Below, one piece after another: positions 25,421 through 62,263 of a stretch of 64,000 nt of DNA. The stretch's first letter is position 1. Each line of letters begins with the position of its first letter. The notes beneath the pieces were generated by a model that was given only the letters and a program-made list of their open reading frames with translations, searched no databases and was not told where the DNA came from. Made by a program: the position numbers and the translations under genes. This DNA comes from Salinirubellus salinus (lineage in GTDB: Archaea; Halobacteriota; Halobacteria; Halobacteriales; Haloarculaceae), in NCBI RefSeq assembly GCF_025231485.1, contig NZ_CP104003.1, positions 2,914,001 to 2,978,000 on the forward strand, written 5' to 3'.

Positions 25421-25620
25421 CACCGGGCTGATCGCTGCCCACGCGGCACCGTGGCTCCGCGTCCGCCCGACTACGGAGCGACGGGTGCCCCACCGTAATC
25501 CTTAATATCTCTACAACCACGGGTTCTCGTGCATCAACTGGACGCGGAGTCACCCCCCGACCGCCGCTCGTGGCGGGGAGAACCGCTCACAACGCGGTTC
25601 TGCGGCCCGGGGGCGACGAC

Positions 25621-25642
25621 TCCAGTCGAAACGGTGGGGTGG
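25621..25642 (+). repeat. Additional origin-box-like site before orc1
   Basis: TCCAGTCGAAACGGTGGGGT then GG matches the main box at 19 of 22 positions. It ends 20 bases before the orc1 start codon, so Orc1 binding here could both mark the origin and repress its own gene. Confidence 0.65.
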
Positions 25643-61275: not shown

Positions 61276-62082
61276 ATGCGAGCGCTCACCCTCGGCCCCG
61301 AGGGCACGTACTCACACCGGGCGACCCGCGCCGTGGCCGACGACATCGACTTCACCGAGTCGGTCACGGGCATCGTCGACGGCGTCGCGTCCGGCGAGTA
61401 CGAACGCGGGGTCGTCCCCATCGAGAACAGCATCGAGGGTTCGGTCACCGAGTCGCTGGACGCGTTGGCCGACCGGAACGTCGCCGTCGTCCAGGAGATC
61501 ATCACGCCCATCCGCCACGCGCTGATGGCCCAGCACGGCGAGTTCGACCTCGTCGCCAGCCACGCGCAGGCGCTGGCGCAGTGTCGGGCCTACCTCGACG
61601 CCGAGTACCCCAACGCCACGATGGAGGCCGTCGCCTCCACCGCCCGCGGCGTCGAGCGCGCCCGCGAGGACGACCGCGTCGCCGCCATCGGGCACCCCGA
61701 CACCGCCGGCGACGACCTCCGCGTCCTCGCCGAGGACATCCAGGACCGCACGTCCAACGCCACGCGGTTCCTCGTCCTCGCCCCCGAGTCGGAGCGCAGC
61801 GAGGCGGGCGGCAAGACCAGCCTCGTCGTCTACCCGAACACGAACTACCCCGGCCTGCTGCTCGAGATGCTCGAACCGTTCGCCGACCGCGACATCAACC
61901 TCTCGCGCGTGGAGTCCCGCCCCTCGGGCGAGCGACTCGGCGACTACGTGTTCCACCTCGACTTCGCCGCCGGCATGTACGAGGAACGCGCGAAGGAGGC
62001 GGTCGCGGAGCTGGAGCAGCTGGGCGAGGAGGGCTGGGTGCGGGTGCTGGGGAGTTACGACAGCAAGACCGTCCTCTACTAG
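61276..62082 (+). CDS. pheA: Prephenate dehydratase
   Basis: Converts prephenate to phenylpyruvate for phenylalanine synthesis. The 268-residue stand-alone enzyme starts with LTLGPEGTYSHRATRAVADD. It carries VVPIENSIEGSVTESLD, the catalytic-site stretch RTSNATRFLVL (conserved Thr-Arg-Phe) and the C-terminal ACT regulatory domain (YPNTNYPGLLLEMLEPFADR, then NLSRVESRPSG, the ESRP motif). No chorismate mutase domain is fused, as is usual in archaea. An insert SERSEAGG sits between the catalytic and ACT domains. Confidence 0.93.
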   Translation: MRALTLGPEGTYSHRATRAVADDIDFTESVTGIVDGVASGEYERGVVPIENSIEGSVTESLDALADRNVAVVQEIITPIRHALMAQHGEFDLVASHAQALAQCRAYLDAEYPNATMEAVASTARGVERAREDDRVAAIGHPDTAGDDLRVLAEDIQDRTSNATRFLVLAPESERSEAGGKTSLVVYPNTNYPGLLLEMLEPFADRDINLSRVESRPSGERLGDYVFHLDFAAGMYEERAKEAVAELEQLGEEGWVRVLGSYDSKTVLY

Positions 62083-62194
62083 AACCCACTTTGTACTCGT
62101 CGGGTTCGCTCGCTGCGCTCGCGAACCACTCCTCGCAAAAACTTGGGGAAAAAGTGCGCTCCTCGCTTCGCTCGGAGCGGGTGGGTGTGCTGGT
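62079..62194 (+). repeat. Structured 3' element downstream of pheA (copy B)
   Basis: Starts at the pheA stop codon with CTAGAACCCACT. It has a hairpin GTTCGC/GCGAAC (62104-62109 with 62121-62126), the conserved ACTTGGGGAAAAAGTGCG, a second stem GCTCC/GGAGC (62158-62162 with 62174-62178) and GGGTGGGTGTGCTGG. Blocks and order match copy A after orc1; the second stem differs in sequence but pairs in both. Confidence 0.65.
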
Positions 62195-62263
62195 GACTAC
62201 AGCACAGCACCGCCTCCGCACCCCGACAGCTACCGCCTCCGCGCCGCACGGCACCGCCCGCCA

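Follow-up and report, generated by a model that had tools for sequence, protein, structure and literature searches.

Comparison with described repeat elements

The closest described kind of sequence is formed by the PATE and SMR elements of Haloquadratum. PATEs (palindrome-associated transposable elements), which total about 180-190 copies in a genome, are like the element described here in being transposase-free, palindromic and haloarchaeal, but the palindromes of PATEs are related to the ends of IS605, and their insertion duplicates no target sequence (PMC3119063). The present element, in contrast, has long duplications of gene ends at its antisense copies, and no relation to IS605 was found for it in the genome of Salinirubellus salinus. 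SMR-A of Haloquadratum, the mobilisation of which is unexplained, is likewise non-coding and about 110 bp long, with as many as 54 copies in a single family, but it has terminal inverted repeats, targets the palindromes of IS605 and PATEs, and also makes no target duplication (PMC3119063).

The REP, REPIN and BIME sequences of bacteria are extragenic hairpins too, present in many copies and often near gene ends. REPs, however, are 20-40 bp long and mostly tagged GTAG or CGTC (PMC3733652), whereas the present element measures 110-170 bp, has several different hairpins and conserved T and A tracts, and starts a few bases from a stop codon. The terminators of Haloferax volcanii resemble it in their T stretch ending in C and in the hairpins sometimes found near the site (PMC7237163). 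Those terminators are individual sites, whereas the element here is a repeated mobile module with T-tracts on both strands. No described equivalent was found in the literature, in a search for which subscription papers were mostly out of reach.

The two copies in the window

The window, that is, the whole 64-kb stretch of DNA that was analysed (G000:C1:2914001-2978000), belongs to the 4.38-Mb S. salinus genome (G000) and holds two copies, A and B. An earlier note had them start at the stop codons of orc1 and pheA, and they do, at the TAG of the Orc1/Cdc6 gene (27319-27321) for copy A and at that of pheA (62080-62082) for copy B. The text said to be common to both (TAGAAxCCACT, TGGGGAAAA, TGCG, a stem, and GGGTGGGxGTGCTGG) was also found as described, as was the exchange of stem sequence between CCCGC/GCGGG in copy A (27396-27417) and GCTCC/GGAGC in copy B (62158-62178). 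Beyond this, the element includes, 5' of the described stem, a longer hairpin region (62084-62151) with a second A-run behind it. The features are as follows, in window coordinates, R1 being a covariance model and A2 an alignment of 89 copies from the S. salinus genome.

25570-27321, plus strand: host gene before copy A, Orc1/Cdc6 (Pfam PF09079, PF22703)
27319-27429, plus strand: copy A of the element, from the orc1/cdc6 TAG, the more diverged copy; 71.5 bits with R1, which has both copies in its training set
27396-27417, plus strand: stem 2 of copy A, CCCGC...GCGGG, from the sequence
61285-62082, plus strand: host gene before copy B, prephenate dehydratase (pheA; Pfam PF00800, E=5e-48)
62080-62193, plus strand: copy B of the element, covariance-model span from the pheA TAG; 107.9 bits with R1, trained on this copy as well
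62084-62151, plus strand: stem 1 region of copy B, CCAC-TTTGT-aCTCG-TCGGGT / ACCACTC-CTCGC-AAAAA-cTTGG; covarying helices 1-3 in A2
62105-62125, plus strand: variable hairpin 1, inside the stem 1 region of copy B
62137-62153, minus strand: AAAAACTTGGGGAAAAA in copy B, two minus-strand T5 tracts 7 nt apart
62158-62178, plus strand: stem 2 of copy B, GCTCCTCGCTTCGCTCGGAGC, with a conserved TC/TC internal mismatch; covarying helices 4-6 in A2
62179-62193, plus strand: right-end motif GGGTGGGTGTGCTGG of copy B
62194-62262, plus strand: low-complexity CACCGC/CAGC-rich tail behind copy B, from the sequence

On the gene strand the stop codon is followed, after 0-5 nt, by CCAC, a T-run, an arm with CTCG or GCGC, TCGGG, the variable hairpin 1, CCNCTC, the returning arm, an A-run, GTGG, GGAAAAA and stem 2, behind which the S. 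salinus copies have the motif GGGTGGGTGTGCTGG. In many relatives, and in a few of the S. salinus copies, the right end consists instead of GTGAA, a third hairpin (stem 3) and GTATGC, a form that is frequent among the relatives. The TC/TC mismatch of stem 2 is constant, reading GA/GA on the opposite strand, and the two ends of the element look unlike each other, with CCACC on the left and GTATGC or GTGTGCTGG on the right. The CACCGC/CAGC-rich tail trails many copies in the S. salinus genome, and may or may not be part of the element. Two further copies in this genome (G000:C1:304188-304347 and 3569760-3569928) contain two additional hairpins, inserted between stems 1 and 2; the insert is possibly a second small element within the first.

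Family size and distribution

With the pheA copy as query, blastn gave 42 matching places in the S. salinus genome, the weakest at E=2e-5; copy A is too diverged to be among them. An alignment of 26 copies (A1) was used to build R1, which in turn finds 93 copies in the S. salinus genome at E<=1e-3; with 42 blastn places and 93 model matches, the two window copies are not due to chance. Four copies (G000:C1:38093/4100254 and 51652/4113809) fall within near-identical segments near both contig ends, which suggests a large duplication or inverted repeat in the chromosome.

Further copies in related genomes, on which the earlier note had made its claim depend, are plentiful. The first relatives scanned with R1 gave matches in 22 of 22 genomes from the same family and in 9 of 16 from other families of the order, and over the whole family the count is 137 of 146 genomes, or 95 of 96 among those of good quality. 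A core pattern of 17-18 bases, which also matches unrelated bacteria by chance, points to Haloarcula, Halorientalis, Halomicrobium, Halosimplex, Halovenus, Halorhabdus, Natronomonas, Salinibaculum and Halorubellus as hosts, and R1 gives good scores on loci from Halovenus, Halorubellus, Halorhabdus and Haloarcula. Matches also occur in five haloarchaeal plasmids, in three of which they span only half of the query. Twelve IMG/VR contigs contain the short core pattern, but none has a covariance-model match, and no phage record matches the element; a viral vector was rejected on these grounds.

The window has no Rfam match at the gathering level, in agreement with the earlier view that the element belongs to no named family; at a relaxed threshold there were only chance-level matches, except for the tRNA adjoining the element in locus L047.

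Position behind genes

The proposed location at gene 3' ends was borne out genome-wide. In S. salinus, 81 of the 93 copies have a sense gene before them whose stop lies between -15 and +12 nt relative to the start of the model, the stop codons being TAG in 35 cases, TAA in 23 and TGA in 23. Co-directional neighbours are rarely close: the residual distance, which is what remains after subtracting the element, falls short of 50 nt for 5% of the pairs with an element (n=39) vs. 36% of those without (n=132; p=9e-5). Convergent neighbours are enriched (41/80 with an element vs. 41/173 without, p=2e-5). For both comparisons genes were called with a simple codon-position scorer, by the same procedure for loci with and without the element.

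Ten of the host genes were looked up, and the nine with Pfam matches are mutually unrelated and mostly of housekeeping type. They include genes for prolyl-tRNA synthetase, an EF-G-type factor, an ATP synthase subunit, a chaperonin, NurA and PhoU. In two genera, copies stand behind genes with a GGMM-type tail (G000:C1:2223620 and 3532940, and L159 in G019); one of these genes encodes a chaperonin (Cpn60/TCP1).

Mobility and duplicated gene ends

The copies are mobile insertions and not two conserved relics, which the earlier note had missed. Orthologues of pheA were found in 27 of the 28 relatives searched, and the element follows pheA at none of the 25 relative loci (in 23 genomes) whose gene end was readable, so that copy B was most simply gained in the S. 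salinus lineage. The closest relative (G008, L219) has a two-copy short tandem repeat (CCAGGACTCCACCGCGACGTTCACGTTT) behind its pheA orthologue, and no element. In another genome, G014, three copies at unrelated places are essentially identical over about 170 bp, while a fourth differs from them mainly in hairpin 1, which appears to have been swapped as a module. The left flank of the three is itself partly conserved, which leaves the exact borders of the element uncertain. Six loci of this genome (L380-L383, L385 and L387) have the common left flank TGCTCACTAxxCCTGCG, with no stop codon adjoining. Between the congeneric genomes G001 and G020, about 3 of 13-14 G001 loci have a flank-similar counterpart among the strong matches listed. 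The element is thus multi-copy, lacks coding capacity and stands at differing locations among relatives, and we file it as a transposase-free mobile element and as neither a PATE nor an RNA family.

Many copies in the relatives are antisense to the gene that they follow, and it is their right end that lies close to the stop codon. Of these antisense copies, 29 of 38 have the 3' end of the gene directly repeated on their flanks; of the sense copies that follow coding genes, 0 of 28 do (p=4e-11). Shuffled pairings reach the threshold for a repeat in 3 of 313 cases. All of these repeats are between 18 and 134 bp long, mostly 33-86, with one constant junction, a few bases before CCACC, and the other at a variable point within the gene. 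At tRNA genes sense copies can have the duplication too (L050, L052). Around the S. salinus copies no direct repeats above the control were found, save at one pair of adjacent copies. At L075 (G014:C1:2703783-2705433) ten apparently identical units of 171 bp, each consisting of a gene 3'-end fragment and one copy, stand in tandem. A purely tandem-slippage origin of the duplications accounts for such arrays but not for L103, L133 and L151, where the stop codon is not the same at the two gene ends, and it was rejected; the differing stop codons argue for insertion and duplication in one event. We know of no transposition mechanism that would give long duplications varying in length but keeping one junction fixed. 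As a tentative suggestion, possible at best, the insertion process may recognise gene ends (stop codons and tRNA 3' ends) either way round and rebuild the end, duplicating 18-134 bp of it if the element is antisense, with the terminator of the host gene replaced by that of the element.

A different mode of movement would be that of a single-stranded DNA substrate in the sense of REPs and REPINs or of PATEs, mobilised in trans by an IS200/IS605-type (HUH, Y1) transposase. The element is transposase-free and palindromic, occurs in tens of copies, has Watson-Crick pairing with conserved mismatches and is located at gene ends as REPs are, and PATEs of such a kind have been described in haloarchaea (PMC3119063). 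PATEs and IS605, however, make no target duplication (PMC3119063), and here the antisense copies are accompanied by duplications of 18-134 bp. Moreover, the S. salinus genome has only one Y1 (IS200-type) transposase gene, and there is no R1 match within its 3.3-kb locus, even at E=5. We regard this as unlikely; it competes over the mode of movement only, and an element moved in this way could carry a terminator too.

Palindromes in DNA or a fold in RNA

Covariation was analysed in A2 and in A3, an alignment of 118 copies from relatives. In A2 the cells that pair make up 89.1% vs. 71.6% after shuffling, the covariation score is 0.366 vs. 0.103, and double changes occur in all 27 pairs; for A3 the score is 0.481 vs. 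0.109, with 551 vs. 158 double-changed cells. Both scores lie above all 500 shuffles and all slid controls, which collapse, so the covarying pairs that the earlier note had called for do exist.

Covariation of this strength, together with the 81 sense copies directly behind stop codons in S. salinus and the transcription expected to pass through the site, would suit a cis-acting RNA in the 3' UTR, with the transcribed fold under selection for stability, processing or regulation. The kinds of pair involved argue otherwise. An RNA fold is expected to tolerate several percent of G-U pairs, but in the well-paired columns of the element G-U (57) is almost as rare as A-C (50), and in the best-paired rows of the two sets the figures are 6 vs. 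8 and 17 vs. 7 (23 vs. 15 in total), while in tRNA stems from these loci G-U accounts for 29 of 459 pairs and A-C for none (p=4e-7); with the alignments fitted to the model and some copies decayed, this evidence is good but not final. There is possibly a small G-U excess in the relatives' copies. Pairs swap among G-C, U-A, C-G and A-U with G-U intermediates hardly seen. With G-U hardly commoner than A-C, unlike in tRNA, it looks as if the palindromes are preserved at the level of the DNA and not as a fold of the RNA, be it through selection, through a protein that binds the DNA or through correction by template switching. Further points against RNA are that many copies in relatives are antisense to the gene, that the occupied loci vary between genomes and that the host genes are unrelated housekeeping genes, and we hold a functional RNA to be quite improbable. 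What stands of the earlier reading is a conserved, covarying structured element; the RNA fold as the thing selected is unsupported. Strong covariation can arise from DNA palindromes and does not imply a functional RNA, and the count of G-U vs. A-C is a cheap control for claims based on covariation.

Terminator reading

A terminator was among the functions that the earlier note had offered, and it remains one supported option, given the conserved T-tracts. Runs of T5 or A5 are scarce in the GC-rich DNA of the window, with five on both strands, and two of these lie within copy B; the minus-strand T5 pair of AAAAACTTGGGGAAAAA is a candidate terminator for transcription arriving from the right. 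In the relatives a T5 is present on the left side of 98 of 105 copies and a T5C in 90, which places a stretch of the archaeal oligo-T terminator type (T5C) 3' of the stop codon, and two or more U4 tracts (A4 runs) are found on the other strand in 104 of the 105. The columns of these T and A tracts are about 95-100% conserved in the relatives, with almost no covariation, while the neighbouring pairs vary freely. In Haloferax volcanii the intergenic termination motif consists of T stretches, and a T5C insert gave 95% termination in vivo (PMC7237163); in Methanococcus, efficient binding by aCPSF1 needs two U4 tracts (PMC8716108). The oligo-T tracts, conserved on either strand, correspond to the T-stretch terminator of Haloferax, and the element is therefore best read as a portable, probably two-way terminator, at the T-tracts of which transcription would end in vivo.

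Some points tell against this. The avoidance of operon interiors, which like the enrichment of convergent neighbours counts in favour, could reflect the purging of any disruptive insertion, and base pairing between the T and A runs means that structure could add to their conservation. In S. salinus itself the tracts have eroded in part, with T4 in 59 of the 93 copies, T5 in 31, T5C in 17 and two reverse-strand U4 tracts in 46, so that whatever selection there is for termination is relaxed in this genome; the erosion speaks for many old copies or for a relaxed need.

The copies might alternatively be native terminators that are not mobile and have their sequence in common through recombination or convergent evolution. 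Their location at the ends of transcription units, their T-tracts and the loci common to different genera (L131 with L166, L112 with L161) would agree with this. About 93 copies, however, have non-T sequence in common (TCGGG, CCNCTC and the right-end motif), the readable relatives have no copy behind pheA, near-identical copies stand in unrelated spots and long duplications flank the copies, all of which makes native terminators very improbable. An integron-like attC site, with circles of gene end and element inserted by site-specific recombination, is hardly credible: attC sites also stand directly behind stop codons and fold as single-stranded DNA, and the 10 x 171 bp array in G014 is made of units of gene end plus element, but the integron-type core site, RYYYAAC ... 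GTTRRRY, is not visible as a conserved motif at the element ends, and the copies are dispersed as single units behind mutually unrelated genes of the chromosome.

Overall interpretation

On balance we lean towards a non-autonomous mobile DNA element that settles at gene ends and persists most likely through its own terminator. Such an element would be non-coding and about 110-170 bp long, and would combine two or three palindromes with oligo-T and oligo-A tracts that are conserved. It would settle directly at the functional end of a gene, be it a stop codon or a tRNA 3' end, and would most likely persist by bringing its own transcription terminator. A sense insertion would place one gene-strand T-tract just behind the stop codon and an antisense insertion two T-tracts on the gene strand, and the gene would keep its transcript end whichever orientation the element has.

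The precision with which stop codons are approached and the duplication of gene ends point to an insertion or duplication process behind them. If the terminator reading is true, a mobile element would be rewriting the ends of transcription units across a whole archaeal family.
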